From IMG/VR virus record IMGVR_UViG_3300010412_000042, positions 1-35,823 of that record: a stretch of DNA of 35,823 nt; one strand, written 5' to 3'. This document shows, one piece after another, positions 1-10,195 of the stretch. The notes below the pieces were generated by a model. That model saw only the letters and a list, made by a program, of their open reading frames with translations. It ran no database searches and was not told the DNA's origin. How positions within the stretch are numbered: position 1 is the first letter of the stretch; each line of letters opens with the position of its first letter. Origin of the DNA: a virus. Position numbers and translations under genes: made by a program.

Positions 1-38
1 ATCGGGCCGGGGCCCCAAAATTGGCACGATCATTGCTT
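1..38 (+). promoter_or_regulatory. Module-boundary element E1 (sigma-54-type motif)
   Basis: Positions 21-38 read TTGGCACGATCATTGCTT, a full match to the RpoN consensus TGGCACG-N4-TTGC with GG and GC 12 bp apart. A GC-rich palindrome (GGGCCGGGGCCCC) precedes it. The motif covers the stop codon (TCA on the plus strand, 30-32) of the minus-strand gene that ends here. The upstream half of the element lies outside the window. If it is a promoter it would transcribe rightward, antisense to that gene; promoter activity is inferred only. Confidence 0.6.
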
Positions 39-269
39 GTCTAAGTTGCGAATTTCGATAACGAGATATTTTCTCGGATATTCCTTTATCCATTTTCTCA
101 TCGCATCTTCGCGATTAAATGCCTCGACCACGCCGTAACGGCGAGAGCGCGAGCGAAATGCTGGCAAGTATGTTATGCGAAATAATTTCTTCCGAGTATC
201 GCGAAAATGAGTATAGCCCGTCAATTCATCTTTTTCTTTTACGATCGGAAAATTAATTACAGTCCCCAT
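30..269 (-). CDS. Small phage protein of a three-member local family
   Basis: This encodes a 79-aa basic protein of unknown function, the last gene of a three-gene minus-strand cassette. Its stop lies inside element E1. The start at 269 has an AGGTG ribosome site that overlaps the stop (TAG, 277-279) of the gene before it. From about residue 31 it shows a pattern also present in the 55-aa and 57-aa proteins at 3840-4177: a beta-like start, then VVEA, an alpha-like stretch with A and W (AMRKWIKEY), then a second beta-like stretch (YLVIEIRNL). That suggests a compact beta-alpha-beta fold. The shared ancestry is my reading by eye and no enzymatic residues are obvious. Confidence 0.8.
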   Translation of the reverse strand: MGTVINFPIVKEKDELTGYTHFRDTRKKLFRITYLPAFRSRSRRYGVVEAFNREDAMRKWIKEYPRKYLVIEIRNLDKQ

Positions 270-276
270 GTTTCAC

Positions 277-759
277 CTATGCAGTTATGTATATTTCCGC
301 GTCCGTTTCGTAGAGATCAAATTCATACGCGACGGGTTCACGATTACCGGGAAAGCATTCAACAAACATACCAGCCAGAGCATTTCTGCAGGCAAGCATA
401 TTTATTTCGGGATGCTTTGCGAGTTCATTCCAGAGATAACGACCGCCAACAGTTTGAATGTTGTCAACGTCACCGGCTTTGATAGTCCAGCCTTTATGGT
501 TAACGATCCAAACATACAGCGGAACAATGATGTTTTTATAGCGGCGATCCGATTCCACCATGCGAACAGTGTAAACCTTTGGGGCCAGTTTGCGAAGCCA
601 AAGATATGCGGCAACCGTGTCGCCATCGGCAAGGTAAAACGTATACGTTTTACGATGCCAATAAATATCTAGGTCATCAATCGCCCATCCGGTAAACGAT
701 CCGCGCAGTTTCATATCTGCGAGGGTTTCAGCGCGAGAGCCGTCACAATACCAAACCAT
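277..759 (-). CDS. Hypothetical phage protein, 160 aa
   Basis: This 160-aa protein is not recognised. It is soluble-looking, with many aromatic residues and no signal peptide or membrane segment. It starts one base after the stop of the exonuclease gene (TGA-A-ATG) with a GAGG ribosome site, so it is probably translationally coupled to it and transcribed from the promoter at 1454-1481. Codon use and base composition match its neighbours. Placement between an exonuclease and a small basic protein hints at a role in nucleic-acid metabolism or host takeover, but nothing in the sequence proves that. Confidence 0.8.
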   Translation of the reverse strand: MVWYCDGSRAETLADMKLRGSFTGWAIDDLDIYWHRKTYTFYLADGDTVAAYLWLRKLAPKVYTVRMVESDRRYKNIIVPLYVWIVNHKGWTIKAGDVDNIQTVGGRYLWNELAKHPEINMLACRNALAGMFVECFPGNREPVAYEFDLYETDAEIYITA

Positions 760-760
760 T

Positions 761-1423
761 TCAATTAACCTCGTTTACAATTTTCCAAGGGGCCATATCG
801 TATACATTATAAGGAATCCGCTTACGTTTTTCAAGGCATTTTTTCAGTATTTTTACCTCAATTTGAACGTCGGAAAGCGCAGTATGATCTTCCTTAAAAC
901 CAAAGTCACCAGCGCAAAATCTATATGCCATTTCGGCAGAAGTGCGAATATTGCCGACCCGAGTGACCCACCCGTTTTCGCGTGCAATTTTTTTATAGGT
1001 CTTTTTGTTTAGCATTACCTCGCAAGCAAATTGCCAAATGTCAATCAATTTTACGGAGTGGGGAACCATCGGGCCGTCTCCGAGTTTTTTATTAGTTCGG
1101 CGGAGTGCGCGCAGATCGAAACCTAGATTATACGCCGTTATAACTTTCGGGTTGTGCTCTAGCATATCGGTCTGAAATTGTGCTACAATATCGGCCCATG
1201 ATTGCATTTTGATCTGGTTAGAGTCAAGCATAGGGGCATAGTGGGTAAAAGTTTTGGCAGCATAAAACGCCCCCATCATTTGCTTAGGGTTAGTGAATAC
1301 CTCTCGAACGAGAGCGTTATATTGCGCGACAATTTCACCTGAGCGAGTGTGTATAGCATACGCGAAGTCATATACATCGCCGTTCAAGTCAGCGGTTTCA
1401 GTGTCGAGAGTTAAGTACAGCAT
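761..1423 (-). CDS. DnaQ-like 3'-5' exonuclease (DEDDh)
   Basis: This 220-aa protein fits the DEDDh 3'-5' exonuclease fold of the RNase T / DnaQ epsilon type, which removes nucleotides using two metal ions. Visible motifs are Exo I LDTETAD (D7, E9), Exo II AYNLGFDLRAL (N99, D103) and Exo III HTALSD (H180, D185), supplying the four acidic residues plus the histidine. I chose ATG at 1423, which has GAGG seven bases upstream, over an in-frame TTG one codon earlier. It is the first gene after the sigma-70 promoter at 1454-1481. It could degrade host DNA or RNA, trim ends or proofread; the substrate cannot be told. Confidence 0.92.
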   Translation of the reverse strand: MLYLTLDTETADLNGDVYDFAYAIHTRSGEIVAQYNALVREVFTNPKQMMGAFYAAKTFTHYAPMLDSNQIKMQSWADIVAQFQTDMLEHNPKVITAYNLGFDLRALRRTNKKLGDGPMVPHSVKLIDIWQFACEVMLNKKTYKKIARENGWVTRVGNIRTSAEMAYRFCAGDFGFKEDHTALSDVQIEVKILKKCLEKRKRIPYNVYDMAPWKIVNEVN

Positions 1424-1453
1424 CAATGCCTCATATCAATTAATGGTTTGATA

Positions 1454-1481
1454 ATTATAGCAAAGTGAGCGCCAAAGTCAA
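1454..1481 (-). promoter_or_regulatory. Sigma-70 promoter for the exonuclease cassette
   Basis: On the minus strand: TTGACT, 16 bp, TATAAT, with an extended -10 (TGCTATAAT). It is about 30 bp upstream of the exonuclease start and back-to-back with element E2. The extended -10 and the preceding ACTTTGC are shared with the promoter at 2488-2515. Confidence 0.85.
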
Positions 1482-1505
1482 CCCAGAAAAACGTGAATTT
1501 TACCC

Positions 1506-1560
1506 TTGACATTTGCGCGCTCCGCGCGCCGGGGCCCCCAAGTTGGCACGATAGTTGCTA
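1506..1560 (+). promoter_or_regulatory. Module-boundary element E2 (sigma-54-type motif)
   Basis: Read left to right: TTGAC at 1506, a perfect hairpin GCGCGC-TCC-GCGCGC (1515-1529), the GC block CCGGGGCCCCC, then TTGGCACGATAGTTGCTA (1543-1560), a full match to the RpoN -24/-12 consensus. The last three bases are the stop codon of the minus-strand 68-aa gene. The element is divergent from the sigma-70 promoter at 1454-1481. Transcription rightward would be antisense to that cassette; this is inference. Confidence 0.65.
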
Positions 1561-1764
1561 GCTAAAATCCTTCTTATGGATTATATTGTATAGGTGGCGA
1601 ATGGTAGCCTGATCCTCTGCGATCACTTCCGCAACAGCCCTAATAAATGCCATATTATTTTCGTTGGTAGTATCGACGTCGGAAAGTTTAGCCCAAGTTA
1701 ACAGCCCATTAAAAGAGTTGTTAAAATCTTGCGGAGTTCTTCTAGCGCCATATTTTTTATCCAT
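1558..1764 (-). CDS. Hypothetical protein, 68 aa
   Basis: This is a 68-aa, probably helical, charged protein of unknown function. It is the last gene of its cassette. A longer reading would start inside the HAD gene; I chose ATG at 1764 because it lies one base beyond that gene's stop (TAA-A-ATG), with AAGGGC upstream, the coupled layout used elsewhere in this operon. The stop codon is the end of element E2. The C-terminal half (about residues 38-68) is predicted by eye to be one amphipathic helix. No motif points to a function. Confidence 0.75.
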   Translation of the reverse strand: MDKKYGARRTPQDFNNSFNGLLTWAKLSDVDTTNENNMAFIRAVAEVIAEDQATIRHLYNIIHKKDFS

Positions 1765-1765
1765 T

Positions 1766-2236
1766 TTAGTGCCCTTGCTTAGATGGTACATAGTGCGGAA
1801 CAGCGCCGACCGCATGACATACCTTTTCCAGATATTCTATATTATCTTCCCAGAAATGCAATTCTGGCTTTATGGTGAAAGTTGAGAGAAGGGCTTTGAT
1901 TCCCATGATTTTCAGCAGAGAACCAGACCGCTTGTCTTTTCGGCCTTCTCGACTAATCAGGTAATCAGGCTCACCGAGTCGATTTCTAATAAACCATCGG
2001 TCAGGATTGTTAATTACGCGAGCAGTCGCAATCACGACCATAGTTTCCGGATCTGCTAGATCACGCTTATATTGTTCTGCGAGCGGGAGCAGATCATCGT
2101 AGAATGCTTTTGGCTCATTGTCTAGCCAATGTTGCAAGTCTATTCGTTCACCGTTTTCGGTTTCACGGGTTTTATACCGATGCAGGGAGCATACGATAGT
2201 GCCATCCATGTCGTAAATGTGAACACGCTTAATCAT
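1766..2236 (-). CDS. HAD-family phosphatase (PseT-phosphatase-like)
   Basis: This 156-aa protein is a haloacid-dehalogenase superfamily phosphatase. Motif I is YDMDGT (nucleophile D9, acid/base D11), motif II is ATA (T71), motif III is probably K109 in GSLLK, and motif IV is WEDN (E130, D131). Such small phage HAD proteins resemble the 3'-phosphatase half of T4 polynucleotide kinase, which cleans nucleic-acid ends; nucleotidase activity is the alternative. No kinase P-loop is present here. It overlaps the upstream membrane-protein gene by ATGA and is followed one base later by the 68-aa gene, so all four are one translationally coupled unit. Confidence 0.88.
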   Translation of the reverse strand: MIKRVHIYDMDGTIVCSLHRYKTRETENGERIDLQHWLDNEPKAFYDDLLPLAEQYKRDLADPETMVVIATARVINNPDRWFIRNRLGEPDYLISREGRKDKRSGSLLKIMGIKALLSTFTIKPELHFWEDNIEYLEKVCHAVGAVPHYVPSKQGH

Positions 2237-2370
2237 TTTGCAATCTCGTCTATCTTTTCCAACCTTTCATGCTGTAATTCTACAGCCTTTTCCATTTGTT
2301 TGCAAGCGATGTTTTCGGCAATAATACCAAAAATGACAATGCTCAGAATGATGAGAATAATACGATTCAT
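2233..2370 (-). CDS. Small single-span membrane protein, 45 aa
   Basis: This 45-aa protein is too short for most gene callers but is well supported by ATGA overlaps at both ends, with the 37-aa gene before it and the HAD gene after it. Residues 3-18 (RIILIILSIVIFGIIA) form one membrane segment or uncleaved signal anchor. The remainder is charged and helical (residues 26-45, repeated E, K and L), possibly a short coiled coil. A cysteine follows the membrane segment, but the context does not make a convincing lipobox. The layout resembles small phage inner-membrane proteins; function is unknown. Confidence 0.75.
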   Translation of the reverse strand: MNRIILIILSIVIFGIIAENIACKQMEKAVELQHERLEKIDEIAK

Positions 2371-2480
2371 TTGTAGTCTTTCCTATGCTTACGATAGCCC
2401 AATTTTTGGGCACGCTTACGGTCACGCTGAACCGCAGCCTTGTTGAATTTCCGACAGTTTTTTGCAACAGGATTTTTCAT
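2367..2480 (-). CDS. Basic 37-aa phage protein (DUF7230-like)
   Basis: This 37-aa very basic protein is the first gene after the promoter at 2488-2515, with its ATG only a few bases downstream of the expected transcription start, so the leader is very short. The start MKNPVAKNCRKFNK and the end GYRKHRKDYK match, from memory, a widespread family of tiny phage proteins of unknown function with the pattern KNPVAKN..KFN....DRK.......RKHK. Its charge suggests nucleic-acid or ribosome binding, which is inference. It overlaps the next gene by ATGA. Confidence 0.8.
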   Translation of the reverse strand: MKNPVAKNCRKFNKAAVQRDRKRAQKLGYRKHRKDYK

Positions 2481-2487
2481 AGTTAGT

Positions 2488-2515
2488 ATTATAGCAAAGT
2501 CTACAAGTTTTGCAA
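2488..2515 (-). promoter_or_regulatory. Sigma-70 promoter of the HAD cassette
   Basis: On the minus strand: TTGCAA, 16 bp, TATAAT with extended -10 TGCTATAAT. The start point would be around 2481, directly at the 37-aa ATG. A conserved 34-bp block with a palindrome lies just upstream of the -35. Confidence 0.8.
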
Positions 2516-2545
2516 GCGAAAAAAGTGTAAATATTTACGGTTGAC
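2512..2545. promoter_or_regulatory. 34-bp block with palindrome GTAAATATTTAC (copy 1)
   Basis: This 34-bp block recurs at 3767-3800 with a single difference. It contains an A-tract (GCGAAAAAAGTG), the 12-bp perfect palindrome GTAAATATTTAC (2527-2538) and TTGAC. Both copies sit immediately upstream of a minus-strand promoter whose -35 is weak (TTGCAA or TTGCTT), so an activator, operator or UP-element role is likely. The binding protein is unknown; the small HTH protein at 2865-3191 is one candidate. Confidence 0.6.
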
Positions 2546-2594
2546 GTGGGCCAAAAAATCGGCCCCGGCCGCCGGATTGGCACGCTATTTGCTT
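2541..2594 (+). promoter_or_regulatory. Module-boundary element E3 (sigma-54-type motif)
   Basis: TTGAC (2541-2545), an inverted repeat GGGCC/GGCCC (2548-2565) and a GC block lead to TTGGCACGCTATTTGCTT (2577-2594), a full -24/-12 match. The stop codon of the 87-aa minus-strand gene (2593-2595) overlaps its end. It is divergent from the promoter at 2488-2515. Confidence 0.65.
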
Positions 2595-2856
2595 ACCAAT
2601 CCTCTCCCCCGAAGTATCCGTAATCTTCGTCGGTCCCCCATCCCGCAGAGGACAGCACGTCGGCATCCGCTTCTGCGTCGGTCAAAAATCCGTCGTACGG
2701 CTCCTCGCCGCAGGAAAACAGGCGGTCTTTAATTGCCAGTATGGAATCTCCCAGCTCATGCCGCTTTCGGATTTCTCCCAGCTCCCAAGAAGTAAGCTCC
2801 TCGCGGGAGATTCCCGCGAGAGCGCAAATTTCGTCAATAACGAGATCCAAGTTCAT
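2593..2856 (-). CDS. Acidic hypothetical protein, 87 aa
   Basis: This 87-aa protein is strongly acidic toward its C-terminus (residues about 55-87, rich in D, E, G and Y), with a helical N-terminal half containing the pattern ISREELTSWELGEIRKRHE. The ATG at 2856 is preferred over an upstream ATG inside the previous gene because TGAGG lies six bases upstream. It follows the HTH-protein gene closely, in the same transcript. The acidic tail could mimic DNA or bind a host protein, but that is speculation and I do not recognise a family. Confidence 0.78.
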   Translation of the reverse strand: MNLDLVIDEICALAGISREELTSWELGEIRKRHELGDSILAIKDRLFSCGEEPYDGFLTDAEADADVLSSAGWGTDEDYGYFGGEDW

Positions 2857-2864
2857 TTTTAGCC

Positions 2865-3191
2865 TCATTCGTTCGTGAGAGCTGCAAGCACCTTTTCCAG
2901 CGCGGATTTGGTAGCTTTTGCGAGCCCTTCAATTTCATGTTCCTTAAGACCTACAGCCGCACCGATAGATTCGGCAATAGCGGTCTTATTCGTGCGATCG
3001 GCTTTTGCCGATTCTTTTTCTTCTTTAACGTACACGCCCATATTGGAAAGTTTGGCACGTACAGATTGCGGCGTTTTGCCGAGTTCAGCCGCCAATTTAG
3101 CGACTTCCGCTTTGTTATCCAGGCCGGTATAACCTGACTTCAGAACAGCAATATCAGCGTCTGAATAATTTTTTACCTTTTCCTTAGCCAT
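2865..3191 (-). CDS. Small SANT/HTH-like DNA-binding protein
   Basis: This 108-aa protein has an N-terminal region, residues about 8-50, with the pattern NYSDADIAVL..GY....NKAEVAKLAAELGKTPQSVRAKL, typical of short HTH or SANT-like proteins found in many T4-like and other phages. It is followed by VYVKEEK, a charged linker, and a helical C-terminus (residues 70-108) that may dimerise. It is probably a DNA-binding regulator. CGGAGAA precedes the ATG, and it is the first gene after the promoter at 3215-3244. It could bind the palindromic or GC-rich repeats around it; that is untested. Confidence 0.8.
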   Translation of the reverse strand: MAKEKVKNYSDADIAVLKSGYTGLDNKAEVAKLAAELGKTPQSVRAKLSNMGVYVKEEKESAKADRTNKTAIAESIGAAVGLKEHEIEGLAKATKSALEKVLAALTNE

Positions 3192-3214
3192 TTCGATTCT
3201 CCGAGTAAAAAGAA

Positions 3215-3244
3215 ATTATAAAACAAAAACCAACCAAAAGTCAA
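3215..3244 (-). promoter_or_regulatory. Sigma-70 promoter of the HTH gene
   Basis: On the minus strand: TTGACT, 18 bp, TATAAT, about 25 bp upstream of the start codon at 3191. The 18-bp spacer is longer than in the neighbouring promoters. Transcription from the upstream non-coding unit may also read into this gene. Confidence 0.75.
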
Positions 3245-3261
3245 GCGATTTTTTCGGCCAG

Positions 3262-3510
3262 TGTAGGGGCCAGCTTTTAAAATCTGCCGATCTTACTTAT
3301 GTCCCTCATCGGCGGGAGAGTTGCTGGCCTTTCCGGCTATCCCCTCGTAGATTGCCAGCGACCTACGGGTTAAGTTTCCTCTCAGCTATTGCTTCCCTTG
3401 AATCCTGAGAAGATCGGAACCCCCTTCTCAGTTTTGCCGTTGAATCCCCTACGTGATTCGCTGGCGGGAAGTGTCTATGTCAACTACGTCATATCTTGTT
3501 TTCTCATTCT
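3262..3510 (-). ncRNA. Probable structured non-coding RNA
   Basis: No plausible reading frame covers this stretch, but it follows a strong minus-strand promoter (3520-3547) and holds nested complementary segments. These include GCCAGCGA (3354-3361) with TCGCTGGC (3458-3465); CTGAGAAG (3405-3412) with CTTCTCAG (3424-3431); GGCCAGC (3268-3274) with GCTGGCC (3323-3329), enclosing GCCGAT/ATCGGC (about 3287-3313); and GTAGGGG (3263-3269) with CCCCTAC (3446-3452). Some pairings are mutually exclusive, so a switch or pseudoknot is possible. I could not match it to a known RNA class. It could be a stand-alone RNA or a long leader of the HTH gene. Confidence 0.55.
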
Positions 3511-3519
3511 ATGTTACAT

Positions 3520-3547
3520 ATTATAACACAGATTCTTAAAAAGTCAA
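3520..3547 (-). promoter_or_regulatory. Sigma-70 promoter of the structured RNA
   Basis: On the minus strand: TTGACT, 16 bp, TATAAT, predicting a start near 3513. It is the last of three promoters arrayed in the same direction at about 111-bp spacing. Confidence 0.8.
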
Positions 3548-3755
3548 CCCTCAAAAGTGGTAATTTTTGGCAGGTTCCAGTTACCTTTCGGTATTCAGTG
3601 GCTCTTAACCCTAACCTTTATTATGCCTATATTATACCACGAAATCTTAAAAAGTCAACCCTCAAAAGTGGTAATTTTTGGCAGGTTCCAGTTACCGTTT
3701 GGTATTCAGTGGCTCTTAACCCTAACCTTTATTATGGATATAGTATAAGCGATCT
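3534..3755. repeat. Tandem 111-bp direct repeat, two copies
   Basis: Copy A is 3534-3644 and copy B 3645-3755; the first roughly 90 bp are nearly identical. Each unit contains, on the minus strand, a -10 box, a transcribed stretch of about 75 nt, and the -35 box of the next promoter. The transcribed part holds a short hairpin, UACC/GGUA, whose loop differs between copies (GAAA in A, AAAC in B) while the stem is kept. No convincing protein is encoded on either strand. The unit looks like duplicated promoter plus small-RNA cassettes. Confidence 0.8.
3631..3658 (-). promoter_or_regulatory. Sigma-70 promoter, middle of tandem array
   Basis: On the minus strand: TTGACT, 16 bp, TATAAT. Same -35 and spacer length as the promoter at 3520-3547, 111 bp away. 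Confidence 0.8.
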
Positions 3756-3770
3756 TCCCGAAAAAAGCAA
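3742..3770 (-). promoter_or_regulatory. Sigma-70 promoter, first of tandem array
   Basis: On the minus strand: TTGCTT, 17 bp, TATACT. The weak -35 is paired with the conserved 34-bp palindromic block just upstream (3767-3800), as at 2488-2515. Confidence 0.7.
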
Positions 3771-3800
3771 GCGAAAAAAGTGTGAATATTTACGGTTGAC
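3767..3800. promoter_or_regulatory. 34-bp block with palindrome (copy 2)
   Basis: Same block as 2512-2545 with one change, which turns the palindrome into GTGAATATTTAC. It lies between element E4 and the first promoter of the tandem array. Confidence 0.6.
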
Positions 3801-3849
3801 AGGGCGCAAATTTTGCGCCGGGGCCCACAAGTTGGCATGTTATTTGCTA
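3796..3849 (+). promoter_or_regulatory. Module-boundary element E4 (sigma-54-type motif)
   Basis: TTGAC is followed by a perfect hairpin GGCGCAAA-T-TTTGCGCC (3803-3819), the block GGGGCCC, and TTGGCATGTTATTTGCTA (3832-3849). GG and GC spacing is correct; one base (T for C) departs from the RpoN consensus. The stop codon of the 55-aa minus-strand gene (3840-3842) lies inside the motif. Confidence 0.6.
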
Positions 3850-4007
3850 GGGCCTACAACCTTTTTTAGTTGCAGATTATGCGTACCAGTTTCCTGGACG
3901 GCCCAGCTGCGAGCAGTCTGGATTGCCAGAGCGCGAGTAGCCTCTACGACGTGGTAGCAGATAGAATACGAACGACCAACGTTGAAGGTAACTTTATATT
4001 CGCTCAT
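3840..4007 (-). CDS. Small phage protein of local family, 55 aa
   Basis: This 55-aa protein begins MSEYKVTFNVGR and contains HVVEATRALAIQTARSW, then a short beta-like end (LQLKKVV). It shares the arrangement of the 57-aa protein directly upstream and of the 79-aa protein at 30-269, so these look like diverged copies of one fold. It overlaps the upstream gene by ATGA, which supports both starts. Its stop is inside element E4. Function is unknown; the size would suit a host-factor inhibitor or a small binding protein, but that is speculation. Confidence 0.75.
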   Translation of the reverse strand: MSEYKVTFNVGRSYSICYHVVEATRALAIQTARSWAVQETGTHNLQLKKVVGPSK

Positions 4008-4177
4008 TTGTAAAGCCTCTTTACAGATACGATGTAGTTAAGGGCATAGCCCCTACGACGGGTGTTCCAGTAGCCTTTCAGGCACCAGATAGCACCTATG
4101 GCATTGTCAGCCTGAACAACCCATTCCAGTACGGGAGAACCGTAGGTTTCGCGAGCTTTGATTTGATATTCGAACAT
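4004..4177 (-). CDS. Small phage protein of local family, 57 aa
   Basis: This 57-aa protein begins MFEYQIKARETYGSP and contains EWVVQADNAIGAIWCLKGYW, then a basic turn (NTRRRGY) and a beta-like end (NYIVSVKRLY). The pattern is the same as in the 55-aa neighbour, with VVQA in place of VVEA. It is the first gene after the promoter at 4205-4233 and ends in an ATGA overlap with the next gene. Too short for routine callers, but promoter, overlap and family resemblance support it. Function is unknown. Confidence 0.75.
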   Translation of the reverse strand: MFEYQIKARETYGSPVLEWVVQADNAIGAIWCLKGYWNTRRRGYALNYIVSVKRLYK

Positions 4178-4204
4178 TGATCTATTTCCTAATTTGTTGA
4201 GATA

Positions 4205-4233
4205 AGTATAAACGATGTAATCGTAAAAGTCAA
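4205..4233 (-). promoter_or_regulatory. Sigma-70 promoter of the 57/55-aa pair
   Basis: On the minus strand: TTGACT, 17 bp, TATACT, about 25 bp upstream of the 57-aa start codon. Confidence 0.8.
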
Positions 4234-4241
4234 GCGTTTAT

Positions 4242-4328
4242 TTAGTGAATTTTCCACAATCCCCAAGTCGGGATTAGGCCAATCACAGCGGAGACAACGA
4301 TTGAAGTGATTACAATTGATTCGTACAT
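4242..4328 (-). CDS. Tiny hydrophobic membrane peptide, 28 aa
   Basis: A 28-aa peptide, MYESIVITSIVVSAVIGLIP followed by TWGLWKIH, is predicted by eye to be a single membrane span with a short charged end. The start at 4328 is chosen because GAGGA lies about seven bases upstream; an in-frame ATG two codons earlier is too close to that site. It has its own promoter at 4354-4382. Small peptides of this type in phages can act on the inner membrane (superinfection exclusion or lysis timing), but no homologue is recognised. Confidence 0.6.
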   Translation of the reverse strand: MYESIVITSIVVSAVIGLIPTWGLWKIH

Positions 4329-4353
4329 ATACATATCCTCATTTCTTAGACAT

Positions 4354-4382
4354 AGTATAATTGAAATAATCTGATAAGTCAA
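4354..4382 (-). promoter_or_regulatory. Sigma-70 promoter of the membrane peptide
   Basis: On the minus strand: TTGACT, 17 bp, TATACT, with the transcription start expected near 4347. Confidence 0.75.
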
Positions 4383-4426
4383 GAAGTTTCTTAGAATTTG
4401 TTGCTATAAACAGGGCGGTTTTTATA

Positions 4427-4470
4427 TACCCCCCATAGGGGTCATATCAATTTCTGATTTGATATGGAAG
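4427..4470 (-). terminator. Paired hairpins after the 22-aa frame
   Basis: On the minus strand, CATATCAA and TTGATATG form an 8-bp stem, followed directly by ACCCC-TAT-GGGG and then UAUAUAAAAA. This could stop transcription coming from the 22-aa frame, although the U-tract is poor. The stretch holds no other gene. Confidence 0.4.
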
Positions 4471-4472
4471 AT

Positions 4473-4488
4473 GCAAATATCATGCCAA
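4473..4488 (-). promoter_or_regulatory. Sigma-54-type motif E6 (isolated)
   Basis: On the minus strand: TTGGCATGATATTTGC, with correct 12-bp GG-to-GC spacing and one departure from consensus, the same T as in E4. It lacks the TTGAC and GC palindrome of E1-E5. The TGA of the 22-aa frame is inside it. About 73 bp upstream lies the reverse-oriented element E5. Confidence 0.4.
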
Positions 4489-4548
4489 GTTTCGGCGCAG
4501 TTTAGCCATATAGTAGGGGGCGTCATTGGCCGCATCTGTTCCGAGCAT
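4480..4548 (-). CDS. Possible 22-aa peptide with strong ribosome site
   Basis: A 22-aa frame (MLGTDAANDAPYYMAKLRRN, then LA) has a near-perfect ribosome binding site AGGAGGAG five bases upstream of its ATG. It is bracketed by motif E5 just upstream and motif E6 over its stop. If E5 were its promoter, the start point would fall at about 4551, after the ribosome site, leaving a leaderless message, so E5 probably does not drive it. No other promoter was found. It may be a leader peptide or chance. Confidence 0.35.
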   Translation of the reverse strand: MLGTDAANDAPYYMAKLRRNLA

Positions 4549-4560
4549 TTCTCCTCCTGA

Positions 4561-4603
4561 AGCAAGGATCGTGCCAAAGTCGCCGCCCGGGCGCAAATGT
4601 CAA
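4561..4603 (-). promoter_or_regulatory. Module-boundary element E5, inverted (sigma-54-type motif)
   Basis: On the minus strand: TTGACATTTGCGC (the same 13 bases as in E2), the palindrome GCCCGGGC, then TTTGGCACGATCCTTGCT, a full -24/-12 match. It is the only full copy facing left, and it is next to the only plus-strand cassette. As in the other copies it is divergent from a sigma-70 promoter (4649-4676). That the element flips with its gene indicates it belongs to that cassette's upstream region. Confidence 0.65.
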
Positions 4604-4648
4604 GAAAAAAGATAGGAAATATATTACAAATATTTAATGAAAAAAGAG

Positions 4649-4676
4649 TTGCATTCTTCGTAGAATGGTGTATAAT
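4649..4676 (+). promoter_or_regulatory. Sigma-70 promoter of the 65-aa gene
   Basis: TTGCAT, 16 bp, TATAAT on the plus strand, with the start point near 4683. It drives the only plus-strand gene of the accessory block. Confidence 0.75.
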
Positions 4677-4728
4677 TATAATCATAGTAGAGAGAGCAAG
4701 ATAGTTAAGGTAAAGAGGATTAAGCAAA

Positions 4729-4925
4729 TGGCATTCGAATTCGACGAAGTTTACAAAGCAAACGTATTCGCAGATACGACAGTGATGCTCGTGATGGATC
4801 GCGGGGATTGGTGGGTGTTGGCTGGTACGGATGAGGATAGCTCAAAGTATTTCGCCGGATGGTATTCCCATCTGGATGATGCTGAGGAAGCATACGCTCG
4901 CGTAGTGGGAGAATGTAGAAGATAA
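4729..4925 (+). CDS. Acidic hypothetical protein, 65 aa
   Basis: This 65-aa acidic protein starts MAFEFDEVYKANVF and contains MDRGDWWVLAGTDED and WYSHLDDAEEAYARVVGE. ATG 4729 is chosen over an upstream ATG at 4665 because the latter lies within the promoter, and AGAGGA is near the chosen start. The pattern beta-strands, WW, then a helix with DDAEEAYARV resembles small phage proteins of the DUF-type with a WY..L.DA..A motif, but I cannot name one. It is convergent with the ThyX operon, and a GC-rich hairpin separates them. Confidence 0.75.
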
Positions 4926-4930
4926 TATAG

Positions 4931-4958
4931 TATATAAATATAATAATATATTTATATA
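4931..4958. terminator. AT-only palindrome after the 65-aa gene
   Basis: TATATAAATATA (4931-4942) and TATATTTATATA (4947-4958) form a perfect 12-bp inverted repeat of A and T only, starting five bases after the stop codon. It could protect the 3' end or melt easily; it is too weak alone to be a classical terminator. Confidence 0.4.
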
Positions 4959-4989
4959 TTAAATAATAAATAAAGTTATAGCGCACGCA

Positions 4990-5037
4990 GGGCGGGGCGG
5001 ATGTTGGACCTTATAGGGTCCCATCGCCCGCCGCCCC
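4990..5037. terminator. GC-rich hairpin between convergent genes
   Basis: GGGCGGGGCGGATG and its imperfect complement CATCGCCCGCCGCCCC enclose the inner stem GGACC/GGTCC around a loop near 5011-5016. It lies between the plus-strand 65-aa gene and the minus-strand operon that ends at 5066. On the minus strand it is followed by a T-rich stretch, on the plus strand by CTCTCC, so a two-way stop is likely but the leftward direction is better. Confidence 0.6.
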
Positions 5038-5065
5038 TCTCCGCGTAAACCATTATGGGTATTTT

Positions 5066-5293
5066 TCAACCCCCAGAGTCTTGTAAGGTCTGTAGCAGTT
5101 CCATCCAAATCTCGAACCCCTCAGCCGTAGGTGGAAGAATATCAAGAATTTTTTCGATTACGTCACGTTTCACAAATATGCCCCGTCTGGCCTTCCATGC
5201 AGCCAAAGCAGTTTCATGGGGGCCAGGAAAAATTCCAGGAGCACCAGGAAACTTAGCACTATATGTTTTCCACCAGTCCTCAAATGTACTCAT
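5066..5293 (-). CDS. Hypothetical phage protein, 75 aa
   Basis: This 75-aa protein starts MSTFEDWWKTYSAKFPG and has HETALAAWKARRG in the middle, then a helical end (EGFEIWMELLQTLQDSGG). The FEDWW...A..AWKAR arrangement occurs in many short phage proteins of unknown role, often encoded near nucleotide-metabolism genes. It is the last gene of the ThyX operon and overlaps the gene before it by 14 bp. No catalytic residues are apparent. Confidence 0.8.
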   Translation of the reverse strand: MSTFEDWWKTYSAKFPGAPGIFPGPHETALAAWKARRGIFVKRDVIEKILDILPPTAEGFEIWMELLQTLQDSGG

Positions 5294-5468
5294 GCTTCCA
5301 CCCAGACTTCTCAGGTTTCTCCCAAGGAGTAATAATTGCTACATCCTTATTTTCATAAATAATAAGTTTAACTTTACTAAGAGTTATTGTTACTTCTGAT
5401 CTACTAGCAGTAGTATTAACTTGTATATCATCGCACTCTAGTTCAGTTCCATTTATAGTCAGTTTCAT
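5280..5468 (-). CDS. Hypothetical protein, 62 aa
   Basis: This 62-aa protein, MKLTINGTELECDDIQVN and so on, reads as alternating beta strands with a regular hydrophobic pattern (EVTITLSKVKLIIY, VAIITPW), a small beta-barrel or sandwich by appearance. It overlaps the hydrolase gene upstream by 26 bp and the 75-aa gene downstream by 14 bp, which is close packing typical of this operon. The ribosome site is weak, so translation may depend on coupling. Family not recognised. Confidence 0.75.
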   Translation of the reverse strand: MKLTINGTELECDDIQVNTTASRSEVTITLSKVKLIIYENKDVAIITPWEKPEKSGWKHEYI

Positions 5469-5994
5469 ACATTATAAACCTAGCCAGGATTCGGTAACCT
5501 TCTGGGTTAAGGTGAACATGATCCGTTAAATAATTTTCTAGTCCCAAGTAATAAGGGGATAGGTAGGTTCCACCAGACTCTTCGCAGATTCGCTCTTGCC
5601 ACAGCGCGTAAAAAATCATTGGTGGAAATTTTTCCTCTGTCGAAGGAGTTAGTCCTATACAATATAAATTCGCAGTATCTGGAATATAGGATAGCAATAG
5701 TCTGTAGTTATAAGCAAAATCAGAAATAGACGTGCCTATCAAATAATCATTCATGCCCAAAATAACTACTACTTTGTTTATTTGAGGACCAAAAAAGTCA
5801 GGTCCATTCAAAAACCTAATAGCTCCTTCAAGATTATTAGCTGCAAATTCGCTAGTAGCCCCACCACTAGCTAGAGATACATACTCACTAGTGAAGGCCC
5901 CCATGGAGAACATGGCAACGGTTAGAGAATCTCCTACCACAAGCGTACGGGCCTGCACTGTAAGACTAATTAGCATTAAAATTAAAATTCTCAC
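5443..5994 (-). CDS. Secreted SGNH/GDSL-type hydrolase
   Basis: This 183-aa protein is a member of the SGNH hydrolase (GDSL esterase) superfamily. Residues 1-15 (MRILILMLISLTVQA) look like a cleavable Sec signal peptide. Block I is VVGDSLT (nucleophile S23), block II has a glycine in LASGGAT, block III is GMND (N82), and block V is DHVHLN (D158, H161), so the catalytic set is complete. It starts with GTG, overlapping the previous stop as GTGA, with GGAGATAAA before it. Export from the infected cell suggests a role on envelope polysaccharide acetyl groups or lipids, in lysis or release; the substrate is not deducible. Confidence 0.92.
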   Translation of the reverse strand: MRILILMLISLTVQARTLVVGDSLTVAMFSMGAFTSEYVSLASGGATSEFAANNLEGAIRFLNGPDFFGPQINKVVVILGMNDYLIGTSISDFAYNYRLLLSYIPDTANLYCIGLTPSTEEKFPPMIFYALWQERICEESGGTYLSPYYLGLENYLTDHVHLNPEGYRILARFIMYETDYKWN

Positions 5995-6251
5995 TTTATC
6001 TCCTCGTAGAAATGAAGAACTAGATGTCCTCCAAATCTAAGTAATGTGTTAATGTAAATGCCTCCTTCAACTTCATTACCTGTACCATATATTCGTATAG
6101 TACGGGATTCAAGTTCGTTGCTAGGATTTACTTCTGCCCATAGGTACAAATTATTATTTTGTTCATTAATGTGCAGAATTCGTGCACTTTTTGGCAGCAT
6201 AACAGTCTGCGAATTTGTTATTTTTTCTATAGGATATTTATAAATGACCAT
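5991..6251 (-). CDS. DUF7352-like phage protein, 86 aa
   Basis: This 86-aa protein starts MVIYKYPIEKITNSQTVMLP and contains ARILHINEQNNNLYLWAEV, RIYGTGNEVE and a GGHLVLHFYE end. This matches, from memory, the widespread small phage and bacterial family DUF7352 (pattern W/YKYP, QT..MP..A.IL....Q...L.LWA.V, GTG, G.LV.H.FE). Function is unknown. ATG 6251 is preferred over a TTG one codon before. It overlaps the end of thyX and is followed by the hydrolase with a GTGA overlap. Confidence 0.85.
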   Translation of the reverse strand: MVIYKYPIEKITNSQTVMLPKSARILHINEQNNNLYLWAEVNPSNELESRTIRIYGTGNEVEGGIYINTLLRFGGHLVLHFYEEIK

Positions 6252-6879
6252 CAATCAATGCCCTCCAAGATATAGGAAACAAATCTTGTATAATAAAATC
6301 AATTTTGCCAGCTAACGTTTGAATTTCCTTCTGGGCGGAGGCTTCCAGCCTCAATGCACAAAATCTAGCATAAGCCGCAAGACTACCGGTCCAGTACCAC
6401 TTAGTGTACATAGCTTGAGGTAGAACCATGCGCGCCTGCTCAGGTGCTATACCGTGCGTCAACAAACTAGCATAAAGTTCTTTAGCCCTATAAAAGAAGT
6501 TTTCTACTTGTTTGGTAACTTCTTCGTTATATTCGCTAGTTCCTCCAGAACCCTGTTTTATGGTCATTAGCGGTCTGGTGCGCCATGCGTCAGGGTAGAA
6601 AAAAGTAGGCTCGTAATCAACGTATCGTCTAGAAACTTCGTTTTCTACGAATCCTACCTTATGTTTAAAACATTGGGTACGAACAAAGACAGGTGCCTCA
6701 ATAGCAAAAGTAAGCTGAGGGTGTGCGAAAGGCGTCCAGTGCTTGTGTTTGGCCAAATAGAAAATAAGGTTTTCATCTTTCTGAGTTAAAACATCCTCAG
6801 AAACTTTATCAAAGGATACTCTGGCAGCATCAACTACAGTTTTATCACTGCCCATATAGTCAATTAATTTTACTTTCAT
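6238..6879 (-). CDS. thyX: Flavin-dependent thymidylate synthase ThyX
   Basis: This 213-aa protein makes dTMP from dUMP using methylene-tetrahydrofolate and reduced FAD, and supports phage DNA synthesis. The ThyX signature is present as FKHKVGFVENEVSRRY (residues 71-86); the NExSxRY half is intact. The usual RHR triad reads KHK here (72-74), a conservative change at residues that contact FAD and dUMP. Other family features are HWTPFAHPQLTFAIEAPVFV and ARMVLPQAMYTKWYWTGSL. Length is normal. The start overlaps the previous stop by ATGA. Confidence 0.95.
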   Translation of the reverse strand: MKVKLIDYMGSDKTVVDAARVSFDKVSEDVLTQKDENLIFYLAKHKHWTPFAHPQLTFAIEAPVFVRTQCFKHKVGFVENEVSRRYVDYEPTFFYPDAWRTRPLMTIKQGSGGTSEYNEEVTKQVENFFYRAKELYASLLTHGIAPEQARMVLPQAMYTKWYWTGSLAAYARFCALRLEASAQKEIQTLAGKIDFIIQDLFPISWRALIDGHL

Positions 6880-7118
6880 AGTCTTTCTTCTATTTCCGAG
6901 AGCGTGCGGTGTATTTCAGTGTATCGACTAGATAGAGCTAGACGTATTTCAGTTAGTAGAGTTTCTATGATCGACTTATCTACGCTAAATCGAACATCTT
7001 CAATGGACAATTCTGCGGATTTCTTCTTACTTAGAATCTCATCTACTTCATCTAGCAATTCTAATTCTCTATCTAATTTACGATATTCTTTTAGTAAATC
7101 TTGCAAAGCGTTAAACAT
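6876..7118 (-). CDS. Coiled-coil hypothetical protein, 80 aa
   Basis: This 80-aa protein is almost entirely charged and helical (residues 8-35 and 50-80 with heptad-like L and I spacing), so a two-helix coiled coil is likely. The ATG at 7118 has GGAGA six bases upstream; an upstream in-frame start would lie within a terminator hairpin. It is the first gene of the ThyX operon and overlaps thyX by ATGA. It may be a structural or regulatory partner; no family is recognised. Confidence 0.78.
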   Translation of the reverse strand: MFNALQDLLKEYRKLDRELELLDEVDEILSKKKSAELSIEDVRFSVDKSIIETLLTEIRLALSSRYTEIHRTLSEIEERL

Positions 7119-7136
7119 GGTATCTCCAATATAAAA

Positions 7137-7158
7137 GTGGGGCCACTTCGGGCCCCAC
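7137..7158 (-). terminator. Intrinsic terminator in the operon leader
   Basis: On the minus strand GTGGGGCC-CGAAGT-GGCCCCAC forms a perfect 8-bp GC stem followed by TTTTATATT. It lies only 19 bp before the first gene of the ThyX operon and downstream of the promoter at 7209-7238, so it would stop most operon transcripts unless read through. Confidence 0.75.
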
Positions 7159-7183
7159 CAACAAAACAAACTTGATAGAAAGA

Positions 7184-7201
7184 CTGGATTTCTCAATCCA
7201 G
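7184..7201 (-). promoter_or_regulatory. Leader hairpin upstream of the terminator
   Basis: On the minus strand CTGGATT-GAGA-AATCCAG forms a perfect 7-bp stem with a GNRA-type loop at the very 5' end of the expected transcript. It may stabilise the message or affect the terminator that follows. Confidence 0.55.
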
Positions 7202-7208
7202 TAAATAT

Positions 7209-7238
7209 ATTATATCAAAGATCCCAAGTTTAAGTCAA
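7209..7238 (-). promoter_or_regulatory. Sigma-70 promoter of the ThyX operon
   Basis: On the minus strand: TTGACT, 18 bp, TATAAT. It overlaps the last codons of the DUF551-like gene. The leader would be about 80 nt and contains two hairpins. Confidence 0.7.
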
Positions 7239-7418
7239 AACTGGTTTTTCAATCCTGGCAAAGTGGGTAATTTCATTAGCTGAAAACTTATACCCATAGC
7301 ATATCCAGCTTCCTTTAGTAATAGAACAATAACCTATCATATAGAATCCGTCCTCATGGTGAACTAGTACGTCTTCTAAGTGTCCTGGCACTTCATCTTC
7401 AGTTGAAATCCAATGCAT
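7230..7418 (-). CDS. DUF551-like phage protein, 62 aa
   Basis: This 62-aa protein begins MHWISTEDEVPGHLEDVLVH and ends with EITHFARIEKP. It fits the DUF551 pattern seen in many phages and prophages (W.S..D..P....VLV....G....GY....W........ITHW..L..P). The role of this family is unknown. ATG 7418 is chosen over an upstream ATG because GGAGATATAAAT precedes it. It has its own promoter (7443-7472) and is followed by the terminator at 7137-7158, so it can be a single-gene transcript. It is divergent from the head module. Confidence 0.82.
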   Translation of the reverse strand: MHWISTEDEVPGHLEDVLVHHEDGFYMIGYCSITKGSWICYGYKFSANEITHFARIEKPVLT

Positions 7419-7442
7419 ATTTATATCTCCAGCTTTTAATAT

Positions 7443-7472
7443 ATTATACAATATTAAGTAATGAAATGTCAA
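7443..7472 (-). promoter_or_regulatory. Sigma-70 promoter of the DUF551-like gene
   Basis: On the minus strand: TTGACA, 18 bp, TATAAT, about 25 bp from the start codon. Confidence 0.75.
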
Positions 7473-7512
7473 GATTTATTTTTATTTAGGGTTGAGAAAT
7501 AAAAAATTTTTA

Positions 7513-7541
7513 TTGACATGGACTAAAAATTTTGGTATTAT
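7513..7541 (+). promoter_or_regulatory. Sigma-70 promoter of the packaging/head module
   Basis: TTGACA, 17 bp, TATTAT. The upstream 20 bases (TTGAGAAATA plus A and T tracts) match those of the promoter at 10229-10257, suggesting a shared UP element or regulator site. Confidence 0.8.
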
Positions 7542-7551
7542 TAAGATAATA

Positions 7552-7581
7552 GTATAAGAAAAAGTACTGCTGTACTTATAC
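7552..7581 (+). promoter_or_regulatory. 5' hairpin of the late message
   Basis: GTATAAG (7552-7558) and AGTAC (7563-7567) pair with GTACTTATAC (7572-7581) around a TGCT loop and a small bulge. It lies within a few bases of the expected 5' end, a position that usually stabilises messages. The ribosome site AAGGG follows it. Confidence 0.5.
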
Positions 7582-7605
7582 ATTAAGTCAAGAAGGGATA
7601 CTAAT

Positions 7606-8154
7606 ATGTCACGAGCCAAAGCAATAAATGTGCTAGATCATGATAATAATGTAGAAATCATCGAACCCAAGGATGAGGATATTTCTCCAGAAGGTTTAGA
7701 GGTTGCTAATGCTTATCTAGCTGCAGAAGGCGATGTTAAAAAAGTATCAACTGATCTAGATATTCCACTAGAAATGGTGACAAAATACTTGAATAGAAAG
7801 GAAATAAAGAGGTATATAAATACCGTATTCCTAGATCAGGGTTACAACAATCGCTTTAAAATATCAAGAACACTAGAAGAAATAATAGAGAAAAAGCTCG
7901 AAGAAATGGAAGATACTGAAATGGCCTCTCAAAAGGACATTTCAGAATTGGTCGCGCTAGCTCACAAGTTCCAACTTGAGAACCGAAAGCTCGACCTCGA
8001 GGAGCGCAAGCTCGAACAAAATTATGAGCTTGCTAAATATAAGGAGCGCAATAAGATTACGCTATCAGGACCTGTTGTAAATATTAGCGATCAGTCGCAA
8101 TATGGGGGTAATTATGGCAATCTTATACAGCAGCTACTGGAAATGGATAAATGA
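7606..8154 (+). CDS. Probable terminase small subunit
   Basis: This 182-aa protein has an HTH-like region at residues about 28-66 (EGLEVANAYLAAEGDVKKVS, then IPLEMVTKYLNRKEIKRYI), a central coiled coil rich in E, K and L (about 84-150), and a variable tail. This order (DNA-binding domain, oligomerisation helices, C-terminal tail) is that of small terminases, which recognise phage DNA and load it onto the large subunit. Position as the first gene before PhoH and the large terminase supports it. Ribosome site AAGGG. It overlaps the next gene by ATGA. Sequence similarity alone is weak. Confidence 0.72.
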   Translation: MSRAKAINVLDHDNNVEIIEPKDEDISPEGLEVANAYLAAEGDVKKVSTDLDIPLEMVTKYLNRKEIKRYINTVFLDQGYNNRFKISRTLEEIIEKKLEEMEDTEMASQKDISELVALAHKFQLENRKLDLEERKLEQNYELAKYKERNKITLSGPVVNISDQSQYGGNYGNLIQQLLEMDK

Positions 8155-8855: not shown

Positions 8856-8898
8856 GCTGCCTTCATCGTTCTCCGGCGATGGAGGCAGCTCTTTTTAG
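8856..8898 (+). terminator. Intrinsic terminator before the large terminase
   Basis: GCTGCCTTCATCG (8856-8868) and CGATGGAGGCAGC (8877-8889) form a 13-bp stem with one G-U pair, followed by TCTTTTT. It lies directly before the large terminase gene, with no clear promoter between them. Confidence 0.82.
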
Positions 8899-8905
8899 GA
8901 GAACT

Positions 8906-10195
8906 ATGTTAACCATAAGTAGACCGGATATTCCATCTGATAAAATAATAACTCATTCAATAGCAGATAGATTTTTAAAAATCCCAGTCGAAAACTACTT
9001 AAATCTGTTAGGTATTGAACCTTCACCTCCGCAAATAGCGTTGATTAATGGAGTAAATGACCCAAGATACAGATTCGTAGTTGCGTGTTTCTCTCGTCGA
9101 GTTGGAAAGACGTACATATCAAATATAGTCGCCCAACTAGTAGCACTAGTCCCTGGCTCGAATGTATTATTGATTTCGCCTAATTACAACTTGACGACTA
9201 TTTCATGGGATCTTCAACGAACCTTAATAAATAAGTTCGATATTGAGGTAAAGAAGAATAACCAGAAAGATCGTGTGATAACGTTGACTAATGATTCATC
9301 AATACGCATGGGCTCCGTAAGCCAAGCGGACTCATTAGTAGGACGCTCCTACGATCTAATTTTATTTGACGAAGCCGCAATTGATCCAAATGGAAAAGAT
9401 GTATTTAATATTCAGTTGCGACCAACGTTGGATAAAATAAACTCTAAGGCAATATTCATATCAACCCCTCGGGGATTATATAATTATTTCTATGAATTCT
9501 ATCAGCGCGGTTTCAGTGAAGAATATCCAGATTGGGTATCTATGCACTGCGATTGGCGAGATAATCCTCGTGCTAATGAGGAGGATGTTCGTGCAGCTGA
9601 AAAGTCTATGTCGCGAGCAGAATTCAGACAGGAATACTACGCAGACTTCACGGTATTCGAAGGAAAGATTTGGAATTTTGACTCCGATCGATGTGTGAAA
9701 GATTTAAGCGATCTCCCTCTATGGGAAATGGAAGTTATCGCCGGCATCGACATAGGATTTAAAGATCCTACCGCTATGTGCGTTATTGCGTATGACCACC
9801 ATACACAGAACTACTATGTAATTGACGAGTATTGGGATAGAGAAGAAGGCAGCTTACAGCATGCAAACAGAGTAAAAGAGTTAGAAGAGAAATATCAGAT
9901 ATCAATGATCTTTATAGATTCTGCAGCTGCTCAAACACGCTTTGACTGGGCCCAACAGTTCGACATTGCTACAATAAATGCTAAAAAATCTATTTTAGAT
10001 GGTATAGAGGCTGTTGCAAGAATAGTTGATAATAACAAACTAATAGTAGATGAAAGATGTGCACATGTTTTGGAAGCTTTGGATCAATACCAATGGGATG
10101 ATAAAAAGACTCTTGAAAAACAAAAGCCAAAGCATAACGATGCATCGCACATGGCCGACGCACTTCGCTATGCAATATATACTTATACTGTATAA
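8906..10195 (+). CDS. Terminase large subunit
   Basis: This 429-aa protein is the packaging motor ATPase and nuclease that pumps DNA into the prohead and cuts it. The ATPase domain has a Walker A-like SRRVGKT (63-69) and Walker B LILFDEAA (about 152-158). The RNase H-like nuclease domain has AGIDIGFKDPT (about 280-290), MIFIDSAA (about 335) and DASHMADALRY (about 411-421), giving the expected acidic residues. I set the start at 8906, with AGGAG five bases upstream; the ATG at 8879 lies inside the terminator stem. It follows that terminator, so its transcripts must come from read-through or an unseen promoter. Confidence 0.95.
   Translation: MLTISRPDIPSDKIITHSIADRFLKIPVENYLNLLGIEPSPPQIALINGVNDPRYRFVVACFSRRVGKTYISNIVAQLVALVPGSNVLLISPNYNLTTISWDLQRTLINKFDIEVKKNNQKDRVITLTNDSSIRMGSVSQADSLVGRSYDLILFDEAAIDPNGKDVFNIQLRPTLDKINSKAIFISTPRGLYNYFYEFYQRGFSEEYPDWVSMHCDWRDNPRANEEDVRAAEKSMSRAEFRQEYYADFTVFEGKIWNFDSDRCVKDLSDLPLWEMEVIAGIDIGFKDPTAMCVIAYDHHTQNYYVIDEYWDREEGSLQHANRVKELEEKYQISMIFIDSAAAQTRFDWAQQFDIATINAKKSILDGIEAVARIVDNNKLIVDERCAHVLEALDQYQWDDKKTLEKQKPKHNDASHMADALRYAIYTYTV

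Follow-up and report, generated by a model that had tools for sequence, protein, structure and literature searches.

Early operons that end in sigma-54-type and other host-protein sites in phages with T5-like terminases

Why should a phage carry near-perfect sites for the alternative sigma factor sigma-54 (RpoN) at the ends of its early operons, most of them pointing back into the genes that end there? The question is raised by positions 1 to 35,823 of the IMG/VR virus record IMGVR_UViG_3300010412_000042 (hereafter the window), a 35.8 kb piece of a tailed phage whose genome is incomplete; gene calls are simple picks of open reading frames. A first-pass annotation of the sequence had listed five copies of a motif, TTGGCAYG-N4-TTGC, and had read them as RpoN-type sites within a cassette-boundary element. 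We describe here the element and its relatives, and weigh what it may do at the end of an operon.

The boundary element in the window

All five listed copies (c1 to c5) are present, although c4 departs from the pattern by a T for C in CACG, and a sixth (c6) had been overlooked. Copy c1 (TTGGCACGATCATTGC, 21–36, plus strand) is antisense to gene 30–269 (minus strand), whose stop codon sits within the element. Copies c2 (TTGGCACGATAGTTGC, 1543–1558, plus) and c3 (TTGGCACGCTATTTGC, 2577–2592, plus) adjoin the stop codons of genes 1558–1815 and 2593–2868 (both minus), and c4 (TTGGCATGTTATTTGC, the CATG variant, 3832–3847, plus) overlaps the end of the open reading frame 3840–4007 (minus). As annotated, these four rightward copies run into minus-strand genes from the 3′ side, and each starts at most about 10 nt from an operon stop codon. 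The two leftward copies, c5 (TTGGCACGATCCTTGC, 4562–4577, minus) and c6 (TGGCATGATATTTGCA, 4472–4487, minus), are found in the divergent gap before gene 4728–4925, ahead of a rightward sigma-70 promoter; lying between divergent units, they have lost the tie to an upstream stop codon.

The RpoN-matrix scan that the annotation had proposed gives 16–19.6 bits for all six copies, where about 0.1 sites of at least 16 bits would be expected per window of first-order Markov sequence. The sole further strong match in the window (17177–17192) is coding, and specifies Met-Ala-Arg-Asn-Leu-Leu of the gene starting at 17176. The spacer between the −24 and −12 blocks is strict: seven matches in the window have a spacer of 4 (the six copies and 17177), one has a spacer of 6 and no other length occurs, while the N5 version of the pattern, used as a spacer control, gives matches no more often than chance. 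GG at −24 and GC at −12, separated by the four-base spacer of TGGCAYG/TTGC, are seen in the window and also in the relatives described below. The strict spacer, the score enrichment and this recurrence argue against a chance resemblance, and the motif is, on its letters and spacing, a genuine RpoN-type site.

The annotation had also placed TTGAC and a GC-rich palindrome at each of its five copies, the upstream half of the first being out of view. Both accompany c2 to c5; c1 is truncated where the contig begins, and c6 lacks TTGAC. Read in the direction of the genes, the complete elements c2 to c5 run from the stop codon through GCAANNNNCRTGCCAA, a GC palindrome and GTCAA to a sigma-70 promoter about 25–45 bp further on. 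At c2, the palindromes GCGCGCTCCGCGCGC and GGGGCCCC (1515–1537) are followed by TTGACA (1506–1511, plus), a hexamer that is the −35 box of an antisense sigma-70 promoter in the relatives and has no −10 box here, and then by the sense promoter TTGACT-16-TATAAT (1454–1481, minus), which serves the exonuclease operon. Element c3 has the palindromes GGGCC..GGCCC and CCGGCCGCCGG (2548–2575), TTGAC (2541–2545, plus) and the sense promoter TTGCAA-16-TATAAT (2488–2515, minus); c4 has GGCGCAAATTTTGCGCC (3803–3819), TTGACA (3796–3801, plus) and TTGCTT-17-TATACT (3742–3770, minus); and c5 has CGCCCGGGCG (4584–4593), TTGACA (4598–4603, minus) and the promoter TTGCAT-16-TATAAT (4649–4676, plus). Only the palindrome GGGCCGGGGCCCC (4–16) accompanies c1. 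A consensus antisense sigma-70 promoter (TTGACA-N16..18-TATAAT) is not present in the window: TTGAC(A) is left and the −10 box is gone.

The palindromes vary in sequence yet stay symmetric. Such retained pairing is what would be expected if the element were a 3′-end RNA signal of the sense transcript, a terminator or a processing hairpin, with the sigma-54 match as a by-product; at position 9106 of the related viral locus L060, one copy includes a short hairpin with a T-run behind it. However, the RNAs of five of the six elements fold no better than shuffled sequences (z-scores of 0.97, 1.51, −1.47, −0.18, 0.43 and 0.74, c3 being a marginal exception), and no T-run follows the stem: next to the stop codons and elements of the window there is no U-tract terminator, save a weak candidate at c3. 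Moreover, a strict N4 spacer kept in unrelated phages fits sigma-54 and not a stem. We consider an RNA signal highly improbable.

Two separate contigs break within the GC palindrome of an element: the window begins inside c1, and contig L005, whose terminase is 100% identical to that of the window, begins at the edge of the c5 palindrome (window position about 4582). These breaks suggest that further copies lie in the missing, unassembled part of the genome. They would also suit a shuffling cassette, in which repeat homology lets early gene blocks be swapped, as in the promoter early–stem-loop (PeSL) cassettes of T4-type phages, and the repeats do stand at cassette borders together with a sense promoter. 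Yet the copies have just short blocks in common and differ in their palindromes, and the relatives replace the module with unrelated sites, so that long homology is not what is conserved; this explanation seems to us very doubtful. Queried at the nucleotide level with the 5′ part of the window, phage records yielded no relatives of the elements, and IMG/VR pattern searches with the exact GC block of the window or with the c3/c4 leader GTRAATATTTACGGTTGAC gave no match.

Host-protein sites at the operon ends of relatives

A gapped pattern search of IMG/VR did retrieve two relatives, L060 and L041 (gap-16 matches, mostly one coding family as judged by eye, were set aside). The first 4.6 kb of the window holds small leftward early genes, including those for a DnaQ-like exonuclease (761–1426, minus), an HAD phosphatase resembling the T5-type deoxynucleoside monophosphatase (1766–2236, minus) and a D5-like DNA-binding protein (2865–3191, minus), and the early genes of both relatives are homologous to them (the exonuclease at 51% and 59%, respectively, as well as HAD and D5-like). 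Four elements of L060 place a sigma-54 site after the operon end and next to it, reading along the genes, a Fur-box-like dyad (AAATGAGAATAATTCTCATTT). At three of them a backward consensus sigma-70 promoter (TTGACA-N18-TATAAT or TAAAAT) comes next, and the sense promoter stands last, giving the composite stop, GCAA-N4-CGTGCCA, Fur dyad, antisense promoter and sense promoter. L041 is similar, with TTGACA-N17-TATAAT and GGCGCGGCCGCGCC, and its preceding operon end holds an exact parS site, TGTTTCACGTGAAACA (6982–6997).

The wider family of 35 loci comes from an exonuclease alignment search; the window exonuclease by itself retrieved none of them. Most of these exonuclease loci have antisense consensus sigma-70 promoters (TTGACA-N17/18-TATAAT-nGGCGC), often with zero mismatches; Fur boxes occur in many, and parS or sigma-54 sites in several. 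In most relatives the GC palindrome is located at the start of the antisense sigma-70 promoter, and the Fur, parS, SlmA or sigma-54 sites lie between this promoter and the stop codon. What is seen directly is the sequence and position of the element, the way it faces in the window and L060, and its recurrence across the family.

Orientation follows the GGCGC block. Where a consensus promoter runs on into GGCGC, it is antisense by 26 to 6 in the family and by 182 to 27 in the viral loci retrieved with the composite pattern AAAAN{2,5}CTTGACAN{17,18}TATAATNGGCGC, whereas consensus promoters without this block are sense by 73 to 9 and 155 to 42, respectively (Fisher tests, 1e-12 and 1.5e-43, on counts that include related phages and ignore kinship). 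The composite itself has at least 120 viral matches versus 24 in 257 Gb of genomes. A reading of TATAAT-nGGCGC as a mimic of a host rRNA promoter is not supported: genomes seldom contain the composite, and most of the 24 matches there are in Clostridia. Integron attC sites and stoperator sites were ruled out on sequence. In L275, L278, L280, L290, L295 and L296 the antisense sigma-70 promoter is immediately followed, on its downstream side, by a further motif, GCAAACAAAAGTATTCATTT, often as inverted pairs.

The choice of loci by the sigma-70 composite took no account of sigma-54, and TerL-selected loci serve as controls. Among the composite loci TGGCAYG-Nk-TTGC occurs 41 times at k = 4 and 0–2 times at each other k from 0 to 9; the TerL-selected controls contain no TGGCAYG-N4-TTGC, and sigma-54 sites are not enriched in TerL relatives. 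Likewise, family loci not picked for sigma-54 contain 14 sites of at least 16 bits, versus 0.2 expected. An unbiased census of palindromes in these loci places TGTTCCACGTGGAACA, TGTTTCACGTGAAACA, GAGAATnATTCTC and GTGAGTACTCAC/GTGAGCGCTCAC near the top, all with zero occurrences in the TerL-selected controls. The palindrome GAGAATnATTCTC is the core of a Fur box, and GTGAGCGCTCAC is a variant also bound by SlmA. Both TGTTTCACGTGAAACA and TGTTCCACGTGGAACA are chromosomal parS sequences, bound by ParB (PMC7022226, PMC4368675), and GTGAGTACTCAC is a binding site of SlmA (PMC3116907). In gaps between tandem genes, the parS, Fur and SlmA sites lie at a median of 37–92 nt from the upstream stop codon.

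Exact TGTTTCACGTGAAACA is found at early operon ends in L041, L213, L219, L223, L328 (three sites), L329, L330, L360 and L375, often beside Fur boxes, and TGTTCCACGTGGAACA is commoner still. SlmA-type sites (GTGAGTACTCAC/GTGAGCGCTCAC and near variants) stand at operon ends of sigma-70-composite viral loci such as L389 and L296, where they could act on host division.

It was proposed in the annotation that relatives keeping the palindrome and losing the GG/GC positions would speak against RpoN-type sites. In part this is what is seen: several relatives keep a palindrome and the antisense promoter without any sigma-54 site, but GG and GC are intact wherever the site occurs. The motif is, as annotated, part of a cassette-boundary element that recurs, and in the window and L060 it usually faces antisense where operons end. 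Since antisense sigma-70 promoters and Fur, parS and SlmA sites take the same slot in relatives, what the elements have in common is a place for a host DNA-binding protein, often polymerase itself, where the operon ends, and not RpoN regulation. The sigma-54 sites would then be one interchangeable variant of a modular boundary element that ends early operons in phages with T5-like terminases.

How might these sites work? They could be regulated antisense promoters: with a host activator on, sigma-54 polymerase would make antisense RNA into the early operon ends and damp them. Phage expression would thereby follow the nitrogen or stress state of the host, and Fur and iron would gate the antisense sigma-70 promoter of the relatives. 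The promoter letters, the spacing and the antisense orientation all agree with this, as does the Fur box of L060, whose place, around position +1 of the antisense promoter for sigma-70, is a classic one for an operator. On the other hand, intrinsic terminators or strong palindromes often separate the antisense promoter from the gene, parS and SlmA sites in the same slot are ill-suited to a metabolic switch, and no activator site was noticed near c1 to c6, where no search was aimed at such sites. We regard antisense regulation as unlikely, if still worth weighing.

In nine phage records of up to 94 kb, searches turned up neither a gene for a sigma-54 activator (PF00158) nor one for ParB, which suggests that the sites serve host proteins; the activator may come from the host. 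The same absence would fit a sponge or chromosome mimicry, in which consensus sites titrate or recruit RpoN, Fur, ParB and SlmA, for example disturbing segregation or division, and operon ends are merely free space. What speaks for it is that four unrelated host proteins have exact consensus sites here, repeated several times and lying between genes. But copy number per genome is low before replication, and titration needs neither an antisense orientation nor a placement after the stop codon, so that we judge this explanation decidedly unlikely.

A possible head-on barrier between early cassettes

We favour a reading in which the boundary element acts head-on as a barrier, insulating the early cassettes, with host RNA polymerase–sigma-54 bound at the motifs in the window, and give it a probability of roughly 0.45; binding, barrier effect and timing are inferred. 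In the gene direction, a polymerase leaving an upstream operon would meet the head-on host-protein sites right past the stop codon, before the sense sigma-70 promoter of the next operon. Host proteins and polymerase holoenzymes bound there head-on would stop it or collide with it, and the barrier would insulate each cassette and the divergent next promoter with no need of a classical terminator. In the window variant, where the sigma-70 −10 box is lost, the sigma-54 sites appear to fill its place. DNA-bound proteins or opposing polymerases can indeed halt transcription (review PMC10310618). For the family as a whole, we would give about even odds that early operons are closed with an exchangeable kit of consensus host-protein sites (for backward sigma-70 or sigma-54 polymerase, Fur, ParB and SlmA) which serve as transcription barriers or as docking points on phage DNA and form an undescribed class.

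Terminators bear on this reading in two ways. In its favour, a sense intrinsic terminator is found less often in boundary segments with protein sites (8 of 33) than in those without (61 of 127; p 0.018), a comparison that ignores relatedness among loci. An intrinsic terminator is also present in 69 of 160 segments with antisense sigma-70 promoters (about 43%), so termination cannot be the sole need. Other points weigh against a barrier as well. Intragenic sigma-54 binding in Escherichia coli left the expression of the overlapping gene undiminished, and roadblock repression was excluded there (PMC4591121). The window has no parS, Fur or SlmA site at all. Sigma-54 sites have mixed orientations in other phages, and inverted pairs of them, a few bases apart, are odd for a directional promoter and hard to square with ordinary promoters (L114; L330 at 14515, as in TTGGCATGATAATTGC-TAAG-GCAATTATCGTGCCAA; L026 at 5671–5793). 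In view of the E. coli data, the co-occurring terminators, the mixed orientation and the inverted pairs, the explanation may yet lie in antisense regulation or protein titration. Fur and parS sites are palindromic, so their orientation cannot be quantified.

The window phage and comparison with known systems

Beyond its early region, the window encodes a T5-like large terminase (8879–10195, plus; best 47–48% to Vibrio T5-like phages), a small terminase, a portal, a head protease–capsid protein fusion and lambda-like tail proteins. An open reading frame of at least 3148 amino acids (26378–35821) runs past the contig end; it is tail-fibre-like, with repeats at its end. Within the early region, positions 3518–3739 hold two 111-nt tandem copies, 93% alike, each with a leftward TTGACT-16-TATAAT promoter. 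Downstream of these promoters is a non-coding stretch of about 230 nt (about 3250–3480), rich in inverted repeats, which is a possible candidate for a small RNA; an Rfam search of positions 1–8000, including this stretch, gave no match.

If the barrier reading is true, phages would insulate their cassettes by host holoenzymes and chromosome proteins rather than by terminators, with a slot that takes sigma-54, Fur, ParB or SlmA sites. Phage gene order would then be linked to the host factors of nitrogen, iron, segregation and division, and the elements would be compact natural insulators. Even on the sequence alone, one would not expect phages with T5-like terminases to carry parS, SlmA, Fur and RpoN consensus sites that are both exact and repeated. 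Literature searches, covering open-access full text only, found no description of such elements.

The sites share TGGCAYG-N4-TTGC and its exact spacing with bacterial sigma-54 sites, yet here they are repeated at phage operon ends, for the most part antisense (window and L060), and the phage records searched contain no activator gene. Similarly, the parS and SlmA sites of the relatives have the exact sequences of chromosomal ones, but they stand at early operon ends of phages without ParB in those records, and none is present in the window. With convergent promoters and roadblocks the element would have in common a head-on bound protein or polymerase facing transcription; what differs is that a phage family draws on a modular set of host sites again and again, at many of its operon ends. 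PeSL cassettes are intergenic and join the end signal of one unit to the early promoter of the next. The window elements likewise bring an early promoter for the next unit (the sense sigma-70 promoters at c2 to c5), although they have no stem-loop terminator with a T-run (the weak candidate at c3 excepted), and across the family sigma-54, antisense sigma-70, Fur, parS and SlmA sites are set against the upstream operon. Among known systems, PeSL cassettes are the nearest to these elements, which have a fair chance of being a class of their own.

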